Shown piece by piece: positions 6,286-47,983 of a stretch of 64,000 nt of DNA. Below the pieces are notes generated by a model. That model saw only the letters and a list, made by a program, of their open reading frames with translations, made no database searches and was not told where the DNA came from. The stretch's first letter is position 1. Each line of letters starts with the position of its first letter. The position numbers were made by a program, and so were the translations under genes. The DNA is from an uncultured Tateyamaria sp. (GTDB lineage: Bacteria; Pseudomonadota; Alphaproteobacteria; Rhodobacterales; Rhodobacteraceae): assembly GCF_947503045.1 (NCBI RefSeq), contig NZ_CANNCF010000001.1, forward strand, positions 1 to 64,000, in the 5' to 3' direction.

Positions 6286-6888
6286 TCAGTTCACCACGGG
6301 TTTTGCCTGCGTCGTTGCAGAATTGTCCTGAGCTTTGACGGCCTCGGCGGCGGTTTGGGCGCGGGTGCGGCGCATGGTCTGGGCCAGCAGATCCGGCGCG
6401 CGTTCGCCCAGGGCGGCTCCATCGGCGGGCTCGTAAATGGCCAATCCTACAACCTGGCCTCCGACCTGTCCGATGGCCCGCCAGTACACGTCCCGCATTT
6501 CGGCGCTGGGGGGCTTACCCTTGACTTGTAACAAGGTCAGCGTCTGGCCCTGACGGCGATCAAGGATGGTTTCATCTTCCGGTCCGGACACGGAAGCGCT
6601 GTCACCCGGCGCAACGGCGGCGGCGGTGATCAGGGCCAGTGGAGCCCCGAAGGTGGCCGTACCACCCAGCGTGTCACACCGCGCCATCAGCGCAAAGCGG
6701 GCGCGCAGGCTGCGTTTGTCGACGCAATACCCGACCGGAGGCACGATGGTCACCGCCCCCCGCGCCAGTTGCGCAAAGGGCAACCCGCTGCCCGGAGCCG
6801 CGCCGCCTGTGCTGGCGAAGTCATCGCAGCTTGCCAGGGCCAGACATATGGCCCCGGCGCAGAGCGCCTTAGAGATCCATGTAATCAT
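6286..6888 (-). CDS. Predicted lipoprotein downstream of ilvD
   Basis: A 200-residue protein with a lipoprotein signal peptide: hydrophobic stretch followed by the lipobox Leu-Ala-Ser-Cys with Cys21 as the lipidation site. The mature part contains two further cysteines (Tyr-Cys-Val-Asp and Arg-Cys-Asp) that could form a disulfide, and an Ala-rich, low-complexity C-terminus. The start overlaps the last 20 bases of ilvD, with AAGG 8 bases upstream, so it is translated from the same message. The family is not one I can name; it should be anchored in the periplasmic face of the inner or outer membrane. Confidence 0.75.
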
Positions 6889-8632
6889 GGCGTTCGGCCT
6901 TGGCGCCGGGATGAGTCACGGCCCCTTTATACGCGCCCCCGACAAGTTGAGCGTATTTCCACAACGCGCCGGAGCCATAAAGCGTCTCGCGCGGACCTGC
7001 CCACGCGGCTTTGCGTTCGGCCAGTTCCTCGTCCGAAAGATCGACGTTGATCGACCCTTCGATGGCGTTGATGGTGATCACATCCCCGTCTTTCAGCAAC
7101 GCGATGGGTCCGCCATGGGCGGCCTCGGGGCCAACGTGGCCCACGCAGAACCCGCGCGTTGCACCGGAAAAGCGGCCATCGGTGATCAGCGCCACCTTCT
7201 TGCCCATGCCTTGCCCGGACAGGGCGGCAGTTGTGGCCAGCATCTCGCGCATGCCGGGACCGCCTGCAGGGCCTTCATTGCGGATGACGAACACATCGCC
7301 TTCGGCGTAAGTGCGGTTCTGCACGGATTCGAACGCATCCTGTTCGCACTCAAAGATGCGGGCCGGACCGGTAAAGATTTGGTGCTGAGGTTCGATCCCG
7401 GCGACTTTCACGATGGCACCTTCGGGGGCCACATTGCCCTTGAGGCCCACAACGCCGCCAGTCTTGGTGATCGGTGTTTCGACCGGATAGATGACCTTGC
7501 CATCCGCTTCGAGCGTGTTCTTGTCCAGCTCTTCGCCGATGGAATAGCCCGTGGCAGTCATGCAATCCTCGTGAATCAGACCGGCCTTGCGCAGTTCTTT
7601 CATCACCACAGGCACGCCGCCAACCTCATAGAGGTCCTTGGCCACATACTGCCCGCCAGGTTTGAGGTCGACGAAATAAGGCGTGTCGCGGAAGATTTCG
7701 CAGACGTCCTCAAGGAAAAAGTCGATGCCCGCCTCATGCGCCATGGCAGGCAGGTGCAGACCGGCATTGGTGGACCCGCCGGTGCAGGCCACGATGCGCG
7801 CGGCGTTTTCGAATGCTTCGCGGGTGCAGATGTCGCGGGCGCGGATGTTCTTTTCGATCAGGTTCATCACGGCCGCACCAGAAGCCTTGGCGTATTCATC
7901 GCGGGACTCATAAGGGGCGGGCGCGCCGGAGGAGTTGGGTAGCGCAAGGCCAATGGCCTCGGACACGCAGGCCATGGTGTTGGCGGTGAACTGGCCGCCA
8001 CAGGCCCCGGCAGAGGGGCAGGCGACGCGTTCGAGAATTTCCAGCTCGGCCTCGGTCATCGTGCCGTTTTGCTGATGGCCGACAGCTTCGAACATGTCCT
8101 GCACGGTCAGGTCGCGGTCAAGATAGGCGGGGGGCACGGCGGCACCGGATGCCACACGACCCGGCAGAATCGATCCGCCATACAGGAACACGGAGGGCAC
8201 GTTCAGACGGATCATCGCCATCATCATGCCCGGCAAGGATTTGTCGCAACCAGCCAGACCCACAATAGCGTCATAGCAGTGGCCGCGCATGGTCAACTCG
8301 ACCGTGTCCGCAATCGCCTCGCGCGAGGCCAGGGACGAGCGCATGCCCTCATGGCCCATGGCGATGCCGTCGGTCACGGTGATGGTGGTGAATTCGCGCG
8401 GCGTGCCCGCAGCGCCCTTGACCCCGACCTTGACGGACTGGGCCTGACGGTTCAGCGCGATGTTGCAGGGGGCGGCCTCGTTCCAGCAGGTGGCGACACC
8501 AACGAGGGGCTGATGGATTTCTTCCTCGGTCATGCCCATGGCATAGTAATAGGACCGGTGCGGCGCGCGGGCGGGGCCCTCGGTCACATGGCGGCTGGGC
8601 AGCTTGGATTTGTCGAACTTGCCGTTTGGCAT
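6869..8632 (-). CDS. ilvD: Dihydroxy-acid dehydratase
   Basis: A 587-residue IlvD/Edd-family enzyme of valine, isoleucine and pantothenate synthesis; it dehydrates 2,3-dihydroxy-3-methyl acids to 2-oxo acids using an iron-sulfur cluster. Cluster cysteines are visible in Thr-Cys-Trp-Asn-Glu (about residue 49), Ala-Gly-Cys-Asp-Lys-Ser-Leu-Pro-Gly (about 125) and Ala-Cys-Thr-Gly-Gly-Ser-Thr-Asn (about 200). The C-terminal signature [11 protein letters not shown] is intact. Full length for the family. GAGGGAGAGG precedes the start. It runs divergently from the ABC-like gene. Confidence 0.97.
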
Positions 8633-8799
8633 CGGGCCTCTCCCTCAAAACATTTGCACCGGAATAGCCATTGGTCCGCGCCGCCGCAAGCGCCACACGC
8701 GGTTGCATTGCACTGTGGGTGCCACTAGGTAAACCGAACGGTTCAGGCGGGCGCTCGGTCTCTGCCAGACCACCGGGCACAGCCGATCAGGACGATTGC

Positions 8800-11700
8800 A
8801 TGGATTCCAGCCTTTTCGCTTTCATCTGGAAGCATTCCAAACGAGATCAGCTTTTGCTGCTGGCGCTGACCGTCGTGACGTTTCCGTTTCTCTACGTGAC
8901 GCTGGAACTGCCCAAGCGGATCATCAACGATGCCATCGGTGCGACGGACAATATCGTCAATGTCTTCGGCATGGAACTGACCCAGATTCAGTTCCTGTTG
9001 GCGCTGTGCTTTGGTTATCTGGCCTCGGTTGTGTTGCATGGCCTGCTCAAGATGCGCCTGAACACCATGAAAGGTGTAACGGCCGAGCGGCTTTTGCGTC
9101 GCTTCCGGTTCCAATTGATTGCGCGGATGTTGCGCTTCCCGCGCAGTTATTTCCGTTCGACCTCGCAGGGCGAGCTGGTCAGCATGGTCACGTCCGAGGC
9201 CGAGCCTATGGGCGGGCTGATGGGGGATATGGTCGCCCAACCGGTCTTTCAGGCCGGTCAGATGTTCATCATCCTGATCTTTCTTTTTGTGCAATCCTTC
9301 TGGTTCGGGCTGGCCGGCATCGCTCTGATCCCTTTGCAGGCCTGGCTGATCCCGATGCTGCAGCGGCGCATCAACCTGCTGAACAAGGAACGTATCAAGG
9401 AAATGCGCGCGTTTTCGTCCGAGATTGGGGAAAGTGCGGCGGGAATCTCCGATCTGCGCACCAATGGTGGCCTGCGCTATCGCCTTGCGCAGTTCACCGA
9501 CCGGTTGGGGCGGCTGTTCAGCATCCGCTTCCAGATCTACCAAAAGAAATTCTTCATGAAGTTTCTCAACAACTTCATCACCCAACTTACGCCCTTCTTT
9601 TTCTATTCGGTCGGGGGGTATCTCGCCATTCAGGGCGAGATCACGGTGGGCGCGCTGGTCGCGGCCCTCGCGGCCTACAAGGACCTGTCGAGCCCGTGGA
9701 AAGAGCTGTTGTTCTACTACAACCAGACGCAGGACATGGCCGTGCGCTGGGAGGTTGTGACCGAACGCTTTGCCCCCAAGGACATGATCGACGAGACGCT
9801 GTTTGAAGGCGAGCCGGAAGAGGTTCCGCATCTGCGCGGTGACATCGTCCTCAAGGACGTGACGGTGCGCACGTCGGACAACAACCCGGTGCTGGAAAAC
9901 ATCAACCTGACGATCCCGAAAGGCGCGCGCGTCGCCATTCAGGCCAAAAACCAGACCGAACGGACCGCACTGGCCGAATTGCTGACCCGCGAGGTGCTGC
10001 CGACGCGCGGCAAGATCGAAATGGCGGGCAATGATCTGTCCAAAATGCATCAGGCCGTGATCGCGGCGCGGATCGGCTACGCCCACTCGCGCCCCTACCT
10101 GTTTGACGGCACGCTTGGCTCGAACCTGTTGATGCCCCTGATGACCAGCCCACGCACGGTGGAATGGGTGCGCGACAAACGCGACCGCGAACAGAACGAG
10201 GCGATCCGGTCGGGCAACAGCCGTGACCGCATTGATGCCGACTGGGTTGATCCCGCACTTGCTGGCCTCAATGACGCGGACGATATCCGCCAATGGTGGT
10301 TCGAACTGGTGCAGGCGATGGGCATTGATGATTTCATGTTCCGGCGCATGCTGACCAGCCGGATTGACCCGGACATGCATCCGGACCTTGCCAAGGCGAT
10401 TGTGGCCCTGCGCCCGATGGTCGAACAGCGGCTGCAGGACAAGGGTCTGATCGACGAGGTCCACCGCTTTGATCCCGACACTTTTAACCCGGCTGTACCG
10501 CTGGGGGGCAACCTGCTTTTTGCCTCGCCCAAGCGCGAAATCAGCCAGGAAGGGCTGGCCGCGAACACGGTGTTCATCAACCTGCTGTTCGAACACGGGC
10601 TGGCCGAACAGGGCATCGCGATCTCGCAGACCCTGATCGAGACCCTGCACCAGACCTTTGGCCGCGACGGGACGAGTCACCCACTGTTCACCGCGCTCAA
10701 CATTGACGAGGCGATGTATGAGCGGCTAGTCGACATTGCGCAGCGCCGCCGTGAACGGGGCGATGTGGCACTCACGGATGACGAATTCGCGCTGCTGCTG
10801 ACCGTGCCCTTTGCCTTTACCGCCGAACAGATCGGCCCGGCCTTTCCTGACAGCTTCAAGAAAGAGATCGTGGAAATCCGCAAGGCCAGCGGCGTGGCCC
10901 TGCGCTCGCAGACCGAGGATTTCTTTGTCGCCATCGACCCCGAAAACTACCTGCCGCGGCTGACGCTGCTGGAAAACGCGCTTTATGGGCGGATTTCGAT
11001 GGTGGCAGGCCTCAAGGGGGAGTTGATCGAAGACCTCGTGGCCGACCTGATCAAGGACGAAGGGTTGCGTCGGCTCGTGGCGGAAACCGCCTTTGACATT
11101 CCGACCGGCCTTGGTGGCACCAACCTGCCAACCGTCTTTCATGAACGCGCGGCATTTTCACGGGCCGGGATCAAGCGGCCTGATGTCCTTGTGCTGGACC
11201 GGGCCCTTGCCTCGCACAGCGCCGAACAGCGGCGCAAGACACGCAACGCCCTGCGCGATCTGTTGCCCGATTCCACGCTGATCTTTCTCGAAGAGAAGTT
11301 TGATAACCCAGACGCCTACGATCTCTTTGTCGAAATCAAGGATGGGCGCATCGATGGGGTGCAGAGCAATGACGACGAAGAGGGCGATGACCTCAGCCGG
11401 AAATTGCGGGTGATTTCACGGACCGACCTGTTTTCCGAACTCAGCACCCGCAACCAGCGCCTGTTGGCCTTTGCCGCGCAGTGGTACACGGCAAAGGAGG
11501 GGCAGCGCATCTTTTCGATGGGCGAAAAACCGGACGCGGCTTATTTGTGCATCTCGGGTGCGGCGGTGATGACTTATGACACCGAAAATGGCGAACGCCC
11601 CGTCACCACGGTGGAGCCGGGACGGTTGATCGGTGACCTTGCCATCATCACGAATGAACCCCGCCAACTGCACCTGACGGCGACCAAGGAATCCGCCTTC

Positions 11701-11874
11701 CTGCGGATCGGGGCACCTGAATTCCGCGCGGTTGTGGAAAATGATCCGACGGTTTTGTTCAGCCTGTTGCAGACCGTGGCGGGGCACCTGACGGGGGCCG
11801 CCGAATTGTTGCGGCAGGCCAATATCGCCATTCCGCAGGACGAGGGGCCGCCTCCGCCGCCACTGGATGAATGA
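8800..11874 (+). CDS. Degenerate ABC transporter with large insertion and C-terminal cyclic-nucleotide-binding domain
   Basis: A 1024-residue protein. Residues 1-330 are an ABC exporter-type membrane domain with about six helices. Next is an ATP-binding domain whose motifs are all altered: the Walker A position reads Ala-Lys-Asn-Gln-Thr-Glu-Arg-Thr (about 382-389), with no Gly-Lys-Ser; the Q-loop Gln is lost; Walker B reads Val-Leu-Val-Leu-Asp800-Arg801, with Arg in place of the catalytic Glu; the signature is replaced around Val-Phe-His-Glu-Arg-Ala-Ala-Phe-Ser-Arg; and the switch His is absent. Walker A and B are some 415 residues apart instead of about 120, so roughly 290 residues are inserted. 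Residues 880-1005 form a cNMP-binding domain with Gly-Asp-Leu-Ala-Ile...Pro-Arg-Gln. It overlaps the next gene by 4 bases. The start at 8800 has AGGA upstream; longer frames lack one. ATPase activity looks lost. Confidence 0.88.
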   Translation: MDSSLFAFIWKHSKRDQLLLLALTVVTFPFLYVTLELPKRIINDAIGATDNIVNVFGMELTQIQFLLALCFGYLASVVLHGLLKMRLNTMKGVTAERLLRRFRFQLIARMLRFPRSYFRSTSQGELVSMVTSEAEPMGGLMGDMVAQPVFQAGQMFIILIFLFVQSFWFGLAGIALIPLQAWLIPMLQRRINLLNKERIKEMRAFSSEIGESAAGISDLRTNGGLRYRLAQFTDRLGRLFSIRFQIYQKKFFMKFLNNFITQLTPFFFYSVGGYLAIQGEITVGALVAALAAYKDLSSPWKELLFYYNQTQDMAVRWEVVTERFAPKDMIDETLFEGEPEEVPHLRGDIVLKDVTVRTSDNNPVLENINLTIPKGARVAIQAKNQTERTALAELLTREVLPTRGKIEMAGNDLSKMHQAVIAARIGYAHSRPYLFDGTLGSNLLMPLMTSPRTVEWVRDKRDREQNEAIRSGNSRDRIDADWVDPALAGLNDADDIRQWWFELVQAMGIDDFMFRRMLTSRIDPDMHPDLAKAIVALRPMVEQRLQDKGLIDEVHRFDPDTFNPAVPLGGNLLFASPKREISQEGLAANTVFINLLFEHGLAEQGIAISQTLIETLHQTFGRDGTSHPLFTALNIDEAMYERLVDIAQRRRERGDVALTDDEFALLLTVPFAFTAEQIGPAFPDSFKKEIVEIRKASGVALRSQTEDFFVAIDPENYLPRLTLLENALYGRISMVAGLKGELIEDLVADLIKDEGLRRLVAETAFDIPTGLGGTNLPTVFHERAAFSRAGIKRPDVLVLDRALASHSAEQRRKTRNALRDLLPDSTLIFLEEKFDNPDAYDLFVEIKDGRIDGVQSNDDEEGDDLSRKLRVISRTDLFSELSTRNQRLLAFAAQWYTAKEGQRIFSMGEKPDAAYLCISGAAVMTYDTENGERPVTTVEPGRLIGDLAIITNEPRQLHLTATKESAFLRIGAPEFRAVVENDPTVLFSLLQTVAGHLTGAAELLRQANIAIPQDEGPPPPPLDE

Positions 11875-12776
11875 GCGTCTGGTCCTTTGACTATCACCCG
11901 CACGACCGCTTTGTCGCGCCTGCGCGCGGCACGGCGCAGATTTGGCGGTTGTCCTTTGGCCTTGTTTTGGCGGCAGGGATATTCCTTGTCCTGAGCAAGC
12001 TGATGCTTGAGACCATTTTCACGCTGATGGACCCCGTTTCGGTACGCGTGATCCTGTCGGATGGGCCAACTGCGCAGACGGCTGCCGGAATGCTGATCTT
12101 GCTGTGCCAACTGGGTCTTTTGTCAGTGGCCGCGGCCTGTGTAGTCGTCATGGTGCACAGCCGAAGCCCGGCCACGCTGATCGGCGAGCCGGGACTGGCG
12201 CTGCGGCAGTTTGTCGTTGTCGTCCTCGGAATGCTGGTCCTGATTGTGGTCCTTCTGATCTTGCCGCCTTATGGATTTGGCGCGCCACTCGAACTCAACA
12301 TGAACGTGGGGCGCTGGCTGCTGTTGCTGCCCTTTTCACTGATCGCAGTGTTGATACAGACCAGCGCCGAAGAGATCTTTTTCCGTGGCTACATCCAGCA
12401 GCAACTGGCTGCCCGGTTTCGATCCCCGCTGATCTGGCTGATTGTGCCTGCCGTCTTGTTCGGCTTTGCCCACTACTTGCCCGAAAGCACCGGCAGCAAT
12501 GCCTGGACGATTGTGGCCTGGGCCACGCTGTTCGGCATCCTGATGGCCGACCTCACGGCGCGGTCCGGCACGCTGGGTCCGGCCATTGCAGTGCACTTTG
12601 TCAACAACCTGTCGGCCATGCTGATCATCAGCGTTCCGGACGAGATGTCCGGCCTTGCGCTCTACTTGTTGCCCTTTGGCATGGGGGACGAGGCACAGAT
12701 GGCGGCATGGCTTCCCGTCGACTTCGGCTTTGTGCTGGTCAGCTGGCTGGTGGCCCGTCTGGCCATCAGGGCCTGA
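11871..12776 (+). CDS. CPBP-family intramembrane protease (Abi/CAAX type)
   Basis: A 301-residue integral membrane protein with about eight helices. It carries the three CPBP motifs: Glu-Glu-Ile-Phe-Phe-Arg-Gly (Glu-Glu-x3-Arg), Phe-Gly-Phe-Ala-His (Phe-x3-His) and His-Phe-Val-Asn-Asn. In this family (Rce1, MroQ, bacteriocin-immunity proteins) the Glu and His residues form a membrane-embedded active site that cleaves CAAX-type or small membrane peptides. Translation starts at an ATGA overlap with the degenerate ABC gene, so the two are co-translated and probably act on the same pathway or complex. Substrate unknown. Confidence 0.88.
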   Translation: MSVWSFDYHPHDRFVAPARGTAQIWRLSFGLVLAAGIFLVLSKLMLETIFTLMDPVSVRVILSDGPTAQTAAGMLILLCQLGLLSVAAACVVVMVHSRSPATLIGEPGLALRQFVVVVLGMLVLIVVLLILPPYGFGAPLELNMNVGRWLLLLPFSLIAVLIQTSAEEIFFRGYIQQQLAARFRSPLIWLIVPAVLFGFAHYLPESTGSNAWTIVAWATLFGILMADLTARSGTLGPAIAVHFVNNLSAMLIISVPDEMSGLALYLLPFGMGDEAQMAAWLPVDFGFVLVSWLVARLAIRA

Positions 12777-12834: not shown

Positions 12835-13770
12835 ATGAACTGGATCAGCAACTATGTCCGGCCCCGGATCAACTCGATCTTTTCGCGTCGCGAAACGCCG
12901 GACAACCTGTGGACCAAATGCGATGAGTGCGGCACGATGCTGTTTCATCGCGAACTCAGTGACAATCTGAACGTCTGCACCAATTGCGATCACCACATGG
13001 CAATCACCCCGCGCGACCGCTTTGGCGCGCTGTTTGATGGCGGGATCTATGCGCAGGTCACTGTGCCAGCGCCCATCGCCGACCCGCTGCAATTCCGCGA
13101 TCAAAAGAAATACCCCGACCGCATGCGTGCCGCCCAAAAGGCCACCGGTGAAAGCGAAGCCATGCTCGTTGCCGCGGGCGAGATTGGCCGCACGCCGGTC
13201 ATTGCGGCCGCGCAGGACTTTTCTTTTATGGGCGGGTCGATGGGCATGTATGTGGGCAACGCCATCATTGCCGCTGCGCAAGAGGCGGTGAAACTCAAGC
13301 GCCCACTGATCCTGTTTTCCGCCGCAGGCGGCGCGCGCATGCAGGAGGGCATCCTGAGCCTGATGCAGATGCCGCGCAGCACCGTTGCTGTACAGATGCT
13401 GAAAGAGGCAGGCCTGCCGTACATCGTCGTGCTGACCCACCCGACGACGGGCGGCGTGACGGCCTCCTATGCGATGCTGGGCGATGTGCATATCGCTGAA
13501 CCCAACGCCCTGATCTGCTTTGCCGGGCCGCGCGTTATCGAACAGACCATCCGCGAAAAGCTGCCCGAAGGGTTCCAGCGCGCTGAATATCTGCTGGATC
13601 ACGGCATGCTCGACCGCGTGACCAAGCGCACCGAAATGCGCGCCGAGCTGATCACGATCACCCGTATGCTGATGGGTCTGCCCCCAGCTGTGATGGCTGA
13701 TCTGCCTGCGCCCACGACCCCGGTGTCCTCGGCCGAGGCCGAAATTGACGGCGACAGCGCCAAGCCATGA
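12835..13770 (+). CDS. accD: Acetyl-CoA carboxylase carboxyltransferase beta subunit
   Basis: A 311-residue AccD; with AccA it moves the carboxyl group from biotin to acetyl-CoA to form malonyl-CoA for fatty acid synthesis. The N-terminal zinc ribbon Cys-x2-Cys-x15-18-Cys-x2-Cys is at about residues 27-49, and the crotonase-like core contains Gly-Gly-Ala-Arg-Met-Gln-Glu-Gly and Thr-Thr-Gly-Gly-Val-Thr-Ala-Ser. AGGA lies 7 bases before the ATG. It overlaps folC by 4 bases; the accD-folC pair is a common alphaproteobacterial operon. Confidence 0.97.
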   Translation: MNWISNYVRPRINSIFSRRETPDNLWTKCDECGTMLFHRELSDNLNVCTNCDHHMAITPRDRFGALFDGGIYAQVTVPAPIADPLQFRDQKKYPDRMRAAQKATGESEAMLVAAGEIGRTPVIAAAQDFSFMGGSMGMYVGNAIIAAAQEAVKLKRPLILFSAAGGARMQEGILSLMQMPRSTVAVQMLKEAGLPYIVVLTHPTTGGVTASYAMLGDVHIAEPNALICFAGPRVIEQTIREKLPEGFQRAEYLLDHGMLDRVTKRTEMRAELITITRMLMGLPPAVMADLPAPTTPVSSAEAEIDGDSAKP

Positions 13771-15047
13771 CGGCCCCCAATTCGGACGCCATCCTTGCCC
13801 GGATGATGGCGTTGCACCCCAAGATCATCGACCTCACGCTGGATCGTGTCTGGCGGCTGCTGGATGCATTGGGCAATCCGCAAAACGACCTGCCGCCCGT
13901 GATCCATATCGCGGGAACCAACGGCAAGGGATCGACTCAAGCGATGATCCGCGCCGGGCTTGAGGCCGTGGGCCATCGTGTCCACGCCTACACCTCGCCG
14001 CATCTGGCCCGCTTTCACGAGCGCATCCGCCTCGCGGGCACCCTGATCACCGAAGAAGCGCTAACCGACCTGCTGGATGAGTGCTACGGTGCGAACGGTG
14101 GCGCGGACATCACCTATTTCGAGATTACGACTTGCGCGGCCATCCTCGCCTTTGCTCGCACGCCCGCGGATTACACGTTGCTTGAGGTTGGCCTTGGCGG
14201 GCGGCTGGACGCCACGAATGTGATCGACGCACCCGCGCTGACCATCATCACTCCCGTCTCGATGGATCACGAGGCCTTTCTGGGCAACACGATCGAGGCC
14301 ATCGCGGGCGAAAAGGCGGGTATCATCAAACGCCGCGTGCCGGTTGTGGTCGGTCCGCAGGACGAGGCTGGGCTTGATGTGATCGAAGACCGCGCCAACC
14401 GCCTTGGCGCGCCGATCCTTGCTTATGGGCAGCACTGGCATGCCAGCCCCGAGCGGGACGGGATGATCTATCAGGATGAAACGGGCCTGCTCGACCTGCC
14501 GCGCCCGGTTTTGCCCGGCGATCACCAGATTCAGAACGCAGGCATGGCGCTAGCGGCCCTGCGGCATTTAGGCTGTGACGAGGCGGCGTGCCAGGCGGCA
14601 GTGACGCGTGCCGCATGGCCGGCCCGGATGCAGCGCCTGCGCACCGGCCCGCTGGCCGAGATGTCGGTCGCATCAGGGGCCGAGCTGTGGCTGGATGGCG
14701 GGCACAATCCGGCTGCAGGTAATGCGCTGGCCTCAACCCTGCGCGGCCTGCCCACGCGGCCCACACATATGATCTGCGGTATGCTGAATACCAAGGACGT
14801 GCGCGGATACCTTGCACCCCTCGCATCGGTTGCCGACAGCCTCACCGCGCTGTCGATCCCGGGTGAGGCGGCGACATTGCCCGCTGCGGACACAGCGCAA
14901 GCCGCGCGCGACGTGGGGTTGGACGCGACGGATGCGCCGGACATCAAGGCCGCATTGTCGTCGATCCTCGAAAAAGAGCCACAAGCGCGCGTACTGATCT
15001 GTGGCTCGCTTTACCTTGCGGGTGCCGTGCTGCGCGAAAACGGTTAG
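13767..15047 (+). CDS. folC: Folylpolyglutamate / dihydrofolate synthase
   Basis: A 426-residue Mur-ligase-fold enzyme that adds Glu to dihydropteroate and extends folate polyglutamate tails, using ATP. The P-loop Ala-Gly-Thr-Asn-Gly-Lys-Gly-Ser-Thr lies at about residues 49-57, and Glu-Val-Gly-Leu-Gly-Gly-Arg-Leu-Asp-Ala-Thr-Asn and Leu-Asp-Gly-Gly-His-Asn-Pro are family hallmarks. It starts in an ATGA overlap with accD and its stop shares the bases TTAG with the stop of the convergent zapE gene. Confidence 0.95.
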   Translation: MTAPNSDAILARMMALHPKIIDLTLDRVWRLLDALGNPQNDLPPVIHIAGTNGKGSTQAMIRAGLEAVGHRVHAYTSPHLARFHERIRLAGTLITEEALTDLLDECYGANGGADITYFEITTCAAILAFARTPADYTLLEVGLGGRLDATNVIDAPALTIITPVSMDHEAFLGNTIEAIAGEKAGIIKRRVPVVVGPQDEAGLDVIEDRANRLGAPILAYGQHWHASPERDGMIYQDETGLLDLPRPVLPGDHQIQNAGMALAALRHLGCDEAACQAAVTRAAWPARMQRLRTGPLAEMSVASGAELWLDGGHNPAAGNALASTLRGLPTRPTHMICGMLNTKDVRGYLAPLASVADSLTALSIPGEAATLPAADTAQAARDVGLDATDAPDIKAALSSILEKEPQARVLICGSLYLAGAVLRENG

Positions 15048-46483: not shown

Positions 46484-46553
46484 CACAGTTTTATCCAACA
46501 CCGCCAGGTGCCTGCGGCCTTGATACAAGGTCTCTCTGAGGCATCTCACCTCT

Positions 46554-46581
46554 GCCCCGCCTCTTTTGGCGGGGCTTTTTT
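46554..46581 (+). terminator. Intrinsic terminator of ccrM
   Basis: GCCCCGCC-TCTTTT-GGCGGGGC followed by TTTTTT; an 8-base perfect stem and clean T-run, 70 bases past the ccrM stop. Confidence 0.92.
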
Positions 46582-46630
46582 GTTAATGCGCGTTACATTC
46601 GGCGCGACAGAGGCAAAAGGCGCATGGACC

Positions 46631-47983
46631 ATGGTCGAAATCAGCAACACATTTGTAAGTGCCGGGCGCGCTGCAAACGACAAGCCGGTGCCGCAACACC
46701 GCCACGCGCAGGAAGCGCTGGCACGCAACAAGCGCGAAGGCATGGATCTGGCCGTAAAGGCCCGTGTCGCAGCATTGAGCGTTACGGCGGTGCTCTTGGT
46801 GTTTCTCAATCCGAATTGGGATGTGATCTGGTATTTGGGCCTGCTGGTCTGTCTGGTTCTGGTGGGTCTGGCGCAACGCCGTGTCGGGCAGGTGGGTCAG
46901 TCGCGCGCAGAACTGGGTTTGCTGTTTGTCGACCTCGCATTGATGACTGTGGCGCTGTTGATGCCCAATCCGCTGCAGCGCGAGACTTTGCCGACCGCAT
47001 TGATCTACCAATTTGATGTGTTTCAGTATTTCTACATCCTTCTTGCCGCCGGGGTTCTGTCCTATTCGTGGCGGACCGTTGTAGCCATCGGCACATGGAC
47101 CTGCAGCATGTGGATGGTCGGGGCGACCAGCGTGTGGCTGTTCGGGGTGCAGATACCCTCCGTTTCGGCGGCGGCACTGGGGTTGTTCCCTGCCTCTGCC
47201 GACCTGTCGCGGCAATTGGACCCCAATCTGGTGCATTGGGACTTGCGTATTCAGGAGATCGTGGTGTTTTTCATCGTTGCGGTCATTCTGGCCGTCACGG
47301 TGCGCCGCTATCAGAACCTCGTGCTTAACAGTGCCGAGATGGCCCGCGAACGGGCGAACCTGTCGCGCTATTTCTCACCCACAGTGGTTGACGAGTTGTC
47401 GCACAAGGACGAACCGCTTGGACAGGTGCGCACCCATAACGCTGCGATCCTGTTCGCCGACATCGCCGGGTTTACGGCCTATGCCGACGGGCGCGACCCG
47501 CAGGATGTGATCGACACGCTGCGCGCGTTTCACCGCGAGATGGAGGGCGAAGTGTTCCGCCACGGCGGCACCCTCGACAAGTATCTGGGCGATGGGCTGA
47601 TGGCGAGCTTTGGCACGCCGATGCCCAAACCGGACGATGCCGCGCGCGCCTTGGCTTGCGTGCAGGCGATGGTCGAGCGGATGCAAGAACTGAACGCCAA
47701 GCGCCGTGCGGCGGGGCAGCCCGAAATCGACGCACGGTTCGGGCTGCATTACGGGCAGGTTGTTCTGGGTGACATCGGTGCAAACCGGCTGGAGTTTGCG
47801 GTACTTGGGGACACGGTCAATCTGGCAAGCCGGCTTGAGGCGTTGACGCGCGCCATGAACGTCAGGGTGGTGGCGAGCGACGCGCTTGTGTGTGCTGCGG
47901 GTGCATCCAGGGATTTGCAACGCGCCCCGGATCAGGCCGTTCGCGGCGTGGCACAGCCAGTCGCGGTCTGGGTGCACCAATAG
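46631..47983 (+). CDS. Membrane-bound adenylate/guanylate cyclase
   Basis: A 450-residue protein with about six membrane helices in the first 255 residues and a cytosolic class III cyclase domain (about 280-430). The catalytic parts are Phe-Ala-Asp-Ile-Ala-Gly-Phe-Thr (first metal Asp), Lys-Tyr-Leu-Gly-Asp-Gly-Leu-Met-Ala-Ser-Phe-Gly (second metal Asp and an adenine-selecting Lys) and Gly-Asp-Thr-Val-Asn-Leu-Ala-Ser-Arg-Leu. These features favour cAMP as the product. The ATG at 46631 lies after the ccrM terminator; upstream in-frame ATGs are in or before that hairpin. Confidence 0.9.
   Translation: MVEISNTFVSAGRAANDKPVPQHRHAQEALARNKREGMDLAVKARVAALSVTAVLLVFLNPNWDVIWYLGLLVCLVLVGLAQRRVGQVGQSRAELGLLFVDLALMTVALLMPNPLQRETLPTALIYQFDVFQYFYILLAAGVLSYSWRTVVAIGTWTCSMWMVGATSVWLFGVQIPSVSAAALGLFPASADLSRQLDPNLVHWDLRIQEIVVFFIVAVILAVTVRRYQNLVLNSAEMARERANLSRYFSPTVVDELSHKDEPLGQVRTHNAAILFADIAGFTAYADGRDPQDVIDTLRAFHREMEGEVFRHGGTLDKYLGDGLMASFGTPMPKPDDAARALACVQAMVERMQELNAKRRAAGQPEIDARFGLHYGQVVLGDIGANRLEFAVLGDTVNLASRLEALTRAMNVRVVASDALVCAAGASRDLQRAPDQAVRGVAQPVAVWVHQ

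Follow-up and report, generated by a model that had tools for sequence, protein, structure and literature searches.

A degenerate ABC-exporter-fold protein of an uncultured Tateyamaria belongs to an alphaproteobacterial family that co-occurs with a glycosyltransferase gene set

The gene at 8800..11874 (plus strand; ATG at 8800, stop at 11874) of the window, by which we mean the whole stretch of 64,000 nucleotides analysed here (positions 1 to 64,000 of contig NZ_CANNCF010000001.1 from an uncultured Tateyamaria sp., Rhodobacterales), encodes a pseudo-ABC exporter of 1024 residues: a protein with the fold of an ATP-binding cassette (ABC) exporter that has lost nearly all of its ATPase motifs and ends in a cyclic-nucleotide-binding (cNMP) domain. 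It is a clade A copy of an unnamed alphaproteobacterial family of ABC-exporter-fold proteins. Judged from genome content, the family tracks a set of glycosyltransferase (GT) genes almost perfectly, and the CPBP membrane protease gene that adjoins it in the window only weakly. Fold, motif loss, selection, repetition of a segment, sensor and genomic partners are all read from sequence, and the explanation that we think fits them best, with confidence about evenly divided, is that the protein serves an uncharacterised glycan pathway as a membrane component that does not hydrolyse ATP and is regulated by a nucleotide.

The transmembrane domain (TMD; residues about 1-330, 8800..9789, plus strand) is recognised by Pfam (PF00664, ABC_membrane, residues 53-290, 73.2 bits against a cut-off of 28). 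The fold of the nucleotide-binding domain (NBD) is retained although it is weakly recognised, the ABC_tran match (26.6 bits, cut-off 25) being limited to residues 365-460; the domain is divided into an N-terminal part (residues 340-450, 9817..10149, plus strand) and a C-terminal part (residues 726-855, 10975..11364, plus strand). To read the catalytic columns, we aligned the protein with six further ABC exporters from its genome, all with intact motifs. The GxxxxGK[ST] pattern is present in all six controls and not in the window protein, where the Walker A columns read A-K-N-Q-T-E-R-T (382-389), with Arg388 in place of the P-loop Lys, Thr389 as the next residue, and A, Q and E in place of the three P-loop glycines. 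Likewise, the Q-loop Gln has become Ser430, the signature L-P-T-V-F (776-780), the catalytic Glu Arg801 and the switch His Glu832. Two residues survive, D800 (the Walker B Asp) and the Leu of the signature. The first-pass annotation, made from the letters of the window, had given the same Walker A residues, the same Arg801 and the loss of Q-loop Gln, signature and switch His, and the alignment bears these out; its statement that every ATPase motif is lost holds for P-loop, Q-loop, signature, Glu and His but not for Asp800 and the signature Leu. We infer from these residues that the window protein does not hydrolyse ATP. No C39 peptidase match was found in it by Pfam up to E 1. A 645-residue antisense open reading frame (ORF; 8743-10680, minus strand) covers the greater part of the gene's first two thirds and is probably a by-product of high-GC coding.

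Between the two NBD parts lies an insert (residues about 451-725, 10150..10974, plus strand). The P-loop Lys column and the Walker B Asp are 412 residues apart in the window protein as against 121-122 in the six controls, and the insert therefore amounts to about 290 residues, as had been estimated in the first pass; we place it between Q-loop and signature. Together with its flanks it resembles a triplicated Q-loop-to-signature segment, and the best explanation is that two copies of that segment have been added, making three in all. Searches for an origin in another domain gave no Pfam match for the window insert and no convincing one otherwise (the best was TACO1_YebC_N at E 0.03, for L030), and the insert of one distant member found no match among PDB sequences (best E 0.3).

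Lost motifs are also what a decaying pseudogene carried in the accD gene run would display, a reading that we reject on the pattern of selection and to which we leave almost no weight. Nine orthologue pairs were compared by the ratio of nonsynonymous to synonymous substitution rates (dN/dS). In eight of them the two NBD parts give 0.009-0.081, while the ninth gives 0.25 and 0.08; for NBD parts and insert together the values lie mostly at 0.01-0.1, and the highest (0.25 for the N-terminal NBD part, 0.14 for the insert) both come from the pair L014-L022. The ratios are rough because dS exceeds 1 in several pairs, and they were low enough to conclude that the NBD is under purifying selection, not decay. 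The gene is moreover complete throughout the genus: an orthologue over residues 1-1016 or more was found in 20 of 20 sampled genomes, the window's own included (the shortest covering 1-1018), as was a nearly full-length paralogue, B, which in the window genome is 54% identical to the window protein. The TMD is strongly conserved as well, with 60 of its 330 columns at least 95% conserved across 126 aligned sequences, against 2 of 111 and 6 of 130 in the two NBD parts. Median identity of the window protein to distant members is 47% in the TMD and 29% and 24% in the NBD parts, while to the six ordinary exporters it is 15% in the TMD and 22% and 20% in the NBD parts. The TMD, not the NBD, is thus the conserved part of this family, a pattern inverted against the one usual for exporters.

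Matches to the window protein at E<=1e-40 occur in 54 of 248 genomes sampled from its GTDB family and in 78 of 240 across the class, counts that take in TMD-only and partial matches. A phylum-wide sample searched with a distant member gave matches at 1e-60 in 22 of 299 genomes, all but one from the same class. Plasmid records mostly annotate members as 'ABC transporter transmembrane domain-containing protein', and in the open-licence literature we recognised no paper that deals with the family or with its gene set. In a tree of the first 345 residues, built with FastTree only, a split with full local support divides 68 Rhodobacterales-type rows from the 58 distant ones, and A and B seem to have arisen by duplication among the Rhodobacterales-type copies. 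The two clades are not entirely clean, which limits how far this picture can be pressed: 36 of 37 clade A rows group together (support 94) with one O row inside and L048, labelled A, unplaced; 25 of 26 clade B rows group together (support 92) with two O rows inside; and L029, labelled B, branches below both.

Loss of the motifs is graded, partial across the class and nearly complete in A and B. None of the 126 aligned members has GxxxxGK[ST], and no intact ancestor appears among the 58 distant rows, one of which has Ser after the P-loop position with no GK before it; most of the new matches from the phylum sample and the plasmid searches lie outside this tally, so a member with an intact Walker A may exist elsewhere. 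Distant members keep the first P-loop Gly in 54 of 58 cases, Lys at its column in 28 (Arg in 21), the catalytic Glu in 26, the switch His in 18, the Walker B Asp in 9, the signature Gln in 51 and an LSxxQ-like signature in 50, and in 46 the usual Ser/Thr after the P-loop Lys is Glu or Asp. In clade A, 35 of 37 copies retain the Walker B Asp, and in clade B 22 of 26 do. A regular-expression tally lists 14 switch-His and 7 Q-loop-Gln matches in clade A; a per-column count, which prints the five commonest residues of each column only, gives the Q-loop Gln in none of the 68 Rhodobacterales rows and the switch His in none of the 65 of 68 rows printed. Relatives consisting of the TMD only (419-434 residues, 39-42% identical to residues 1-325 of the window protein) were seen at L098:11773-13077, L099:7773-9077 and L102:9773-11032, in copper-resistance clusters on Phaeobacter, Pseudosulfitobacter and Azospirillum plasmids, where they adjoin copper oxidase, plastocyanin-like and cytochrome c genes; Pfam finds no NBD in those of L098 and L102, the two that were scanned.

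The retained NBD fold and the Walker B Asp so widely kept in clade A would also suit an exporter that is still ATP-driven, either by unusual residues or as a heterodimer whose active site comes from copy B or from an intact exporter. Degenerate ATPase sites are reviewed for heterodimeric exporters (PMC7756269, in the part drawn on here), and in one genome (G098) a full-length-looking ABC exporter gene, known from Pfam matches only, stands one gene from the family copy. That gene (L332:3276-5003, PF00005 at 110 bits) lies upstream on the same strand, and its product is a possible dimer partner of the G098 family copy. A dimer of A and B, however, would contain no canonical site, since both have lost P-loop, signature and catalytic Glu, and we regard ATP-driven export as rather unlikely.

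The evidence that ties the family to a glycan pathway is genomic. GT28-like genes lie in the fetched stretch of 28 of 40 class-level loci, mostly divergent from and adjoining the ABC gene; GT4-like genes are found in 25 of these loci, a histidine phosphatase in 15 and a Methyltransf_17 gene in 15. The full set comprises four glycosyltransferases and a histidine phosphatase, and a gene for a methyltransferase or a polysaccharide-deacetylase-like protein often accompanies them. At L308, for example, Pfam matches Glyco_tran_28_C, His_Phos_1, Glycos_transf_1 (twice) and Methyltransf_17, and a second Glyco_tran_28_C match falls below threshold (20.4 bits, cut-off 22), while on a Sulfitobacter indolifex plasmid five related genes (36-53% identical) stand directly upstream of the family member in a set that also holds a polysaccharide-deacetylase-annotated gene. 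As marker we used the second GT28-like gene, represented by the Sulfitobacter protein in the GTDB-family sample and by the L308 protein in the class sample. It is present (E<=1e-90) in 52 of 52 family-sample genomes with the ABC gene and in 5 of 196 others, the 52 being those with more than a TMD fragment (G023 and G203, with TMD-type fragments, were removed beforehand), and in the class sample in 74 of 78 ABC genomes as against 3 of 162 others. Fisher tests of the association gave 3e-42 to 7e-53 with genomes treated as independent and kinship uncorrected. In the window genome the glycan gene set (L329, G000:C2:284001-304000) lies near an 819-residue MscS-like channel and an SBP_bac_5-type importer, and ABC importer genes with a substrate-binding protein are found near family members on Rhizobium, Sinorhizobium and Azospirillum plasmids.

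A further feature is the cNMP module. In the window protein it occupies residues 899-982 (11494..11745, plus strand), where PF00027 (cNMP_binding) scores 50.3 bits, in agreement with the first-pass call, and carries the phosphate-binding cassette GDLAIITNEPRQ. It is fused to the ABC protein in Rhodobacterales and some others, and in 31 of 40 class-level loci a family-built profile finds a separate cNMP ORF that immediately follows the ABC gene. The consensus of this cassette contains a Glu and an Arg. The Glu is present in 28 of the 30 readable stand-alone matches (GEIAILCDVPRTAT type); clade B cassettes are VGELGL..EPRALDM-like and those of clade A IGDLAII..EPRQLHL-like, with Asp for Glu, Arg kept and the residues after Arg changed. 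From the mostly canonical stand-alone cassettes, set against the altered one of clade A, nucleotide binding looks ancestral in the family. A ligand other than cyclic AMP or cyclic GMP (e.g. ppGpp), or none at all in clade A, is a somewhat doubtful but serious alternative: the clade A cassette is altered, and the cNMP domain of HetC bound ppGpp, not cyclic AMP, in the part of that study used here (PMC10986499), while a textbook cassette is the rule among the family's stand-alone cNMP proteins and the window itself encodes a class III cyclase domain. That adenylate/guanylate cyclase domain (46508-47983, PF00211, 82 bits) is a possible source of ligand for the cNMP domains of the genome.

The CPBP/Rce1-like intramembrane protease encoded next to the window protein (11871..12776, plus strand, 301 residues) offers a different partner, and the first-pass annotation had inferred that the ABC part may gate it in response to a cyclic nucleotide. 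Its description of the protease stands: the start codon lies in an ATGA overlap with the end of the ABC gene, PF02517 scores 65.5 bits, and all three motifs are intact (EEIFFR, 167-172; FGFAH, 197-201; HFVNN, 242-246). The overlapping start and the adjacency of the pair in clade A loci where both genes are visible (L070 ends at a contig edge) would fit such gating. Synteny, established by searching every fetched locus with six window proteins (tblastn), speaks against it. Where present, the ABC gene sits between CPBP and, where seen, ilvD, with accD and folC downstream; in the window these markers are accD at 12835..13770 and folC (folylpolyglutamate synthase) at 13767..15047, both on the plus strand and named from an annotated Ruegeria plasmid, and the divergent upstream gene at 6869..8632 (minus strand), which is presumably ilvD. 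In all 36 fetched Rhodobacterales loci without the ABC gene (L134-L169, picked from CPBP matches, with ilvD within the fetched stretch in 20), CPBP stands directly upstream of accD-folC on the same strand, so that it does not depend on the ABC gene.

The residues of the protease point the same way. In an alignment from which L070, at a contig end, and several loci of the same genus were omitted, the E, E, R, F, H and H of the motifs are identical in 72 of 72 sequences and the last Asn in 71, the catalytic residues being alike with the ABC gene (36 of 36 loci) and without it (36 of 36); the lone change, Asn to Asp, belongs to the set with the ABC gene. A CPBP match occurs in 176 of the 248 family-sample genomes, in 44 of 52 with the ABC gene and 132 of 196 without a full family member, which is a weak association, and none was found in the 16 kb around paralogue B of the window genome (L330) or in the fetched stretches of the distant loci and of the plasmid copy from Sulfitobacter. 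The first pass had named, as telling against its view, homologues that keep their Walker motifs and lack a CPBP neighbour. Only the second half of this was found: many members lack the neighbour, and an intact Walker A is absent from all 126 aligned rows. To account for where the ABC gene is present, the CPBP tree requires eight label changes, two of them forced by well supported branches; the gene may have entered the accD locus once and been lost several times, or may have been gained repeatedly. We therefore reject, on synteny and co-occurrence, the coupling of the two proteins as the principal explanation and consider gating very improbable; CPBP is a separate protease of the accD locus that shares at most transcription with the ABC gene. 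The CPBP gene is doubled in L140, L149, L167 and L168 and, by coordinates, also in genomes G274, G139 and G235.

Comparison with known systems places the family apart from each of them. It shares TMD and NBD fold with the exporters MsbA, PCAT1 and TmrAB, but has lost the catalytic motifs and gained the cNMP module and the insert of about 290 residues, which is like a repeated helical segment; unlike PCAT1-type exporters, the window protein has no C39 peptidase match. Heterodimeric exporters with one degenerate site, such as TM287/288, TAP and CFTR, have lost NBD catalytic residues as here, but neither paralogue A nor B keeps a canonical site. The neighbouring protease is CPBP/Rce1-like in Pfam match and motifs, and is tied to accD, not to the ABC gene. 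An ABC exporter combined with a cNMP domain is common to HetC and to bacteriocin-type exporters with cNMP proteins. One stand-alone cNMP protein of the family matches TIGR03896, a model presumably tied to NHLM exporters, weakly (36.3 bits, cut-off 161). HetC needs its ATPase residue and its C39 peptidase and has the cNMP domain at the N-terminus (PMC10986499), whereas in the family described here the ATPase motifs are missing and the cNMP module is C-terminal or separate. Neither PMC10986499 nor PMC7756269, in the portions consulted, describes an exporter family without any canonical site.

We suggest that a TMD dimer would serve as scaffold or passive gate, either a flippase-like pore or a platform for assembly, for the glycan that the GT set produces; that a cyclic or related nucleotide would bind the cNMP module; and that the signal, relayed through the enlarged non-hydrolysing NBD, would set the TMD open or assembled. 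The first-pass idea of the ABC part as a membrane scaffold or sensor is supported as a possibility by the degenerate exporter fold and its cNMP domain. Several points weigh against this proposal. Many distant members may still bind or slowly hydrolyse ATP, as many keep the glycine-rich loop, an LSxxQ-like signature and the catalytic Glu. Nucleotide binding by the clade A copy is itself uncertain, because Asp replaces the cassette Glu and the residues after Arg are lost. The GT association has exceptions: a match at E<=1e-30 in 12 of the 196 family-sample genomes lacking the ABC gene; 53 of 54 when G023 and G203 are included, G203 lacking the marker; and, in the class sample, four genomes with the ABC gene and no GT marker and three with the reverse. 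Its tests are open to the objection that genomes were treated as independent. Physical linkage is looser still, with no GT28-like gene in the fetched stretch of 12 of the 40 class-level loci, the GT set of the window genome on a different contig from copies A and B, and, among 42 genomes compared, paralogue B no more than 60 kb from the GT marker in 12, farther away on the same contig in 7 and on a separate contig in 23. The structure was modelled as a monomer and with moderate confidence (mean predicted local distance difference test score, pLDDT, 80; predicted template modelling score, pTM, 0.67), with low patches in the TMD.

More tentatively, we envisage a class-wide group of ABC-fold exporters that do without ATP hydrolysis, in which the NBD may have become a relay from a cyclic-nucleotide sensor to a conserved pore that moves or assembles an undescribed surface glycan; a helical segment of the NBD would have been tripled, and copper plasmids would carry pore-only versions without a recognisable NBD. 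If this is true, an exporter fold operating without ATP hydrolysis in much of a bacterial class would separate the role of the fold from that of the motor, as pseudokinases have done for kinases. The near-perfect co-occurrence with the GT gene set offers a pathway in which the pseudo-ABC family can be tested, and through the cNMP module second messengers would be linked to the export or assembly of glycans in bacteria of marine and plant-associated habitats.

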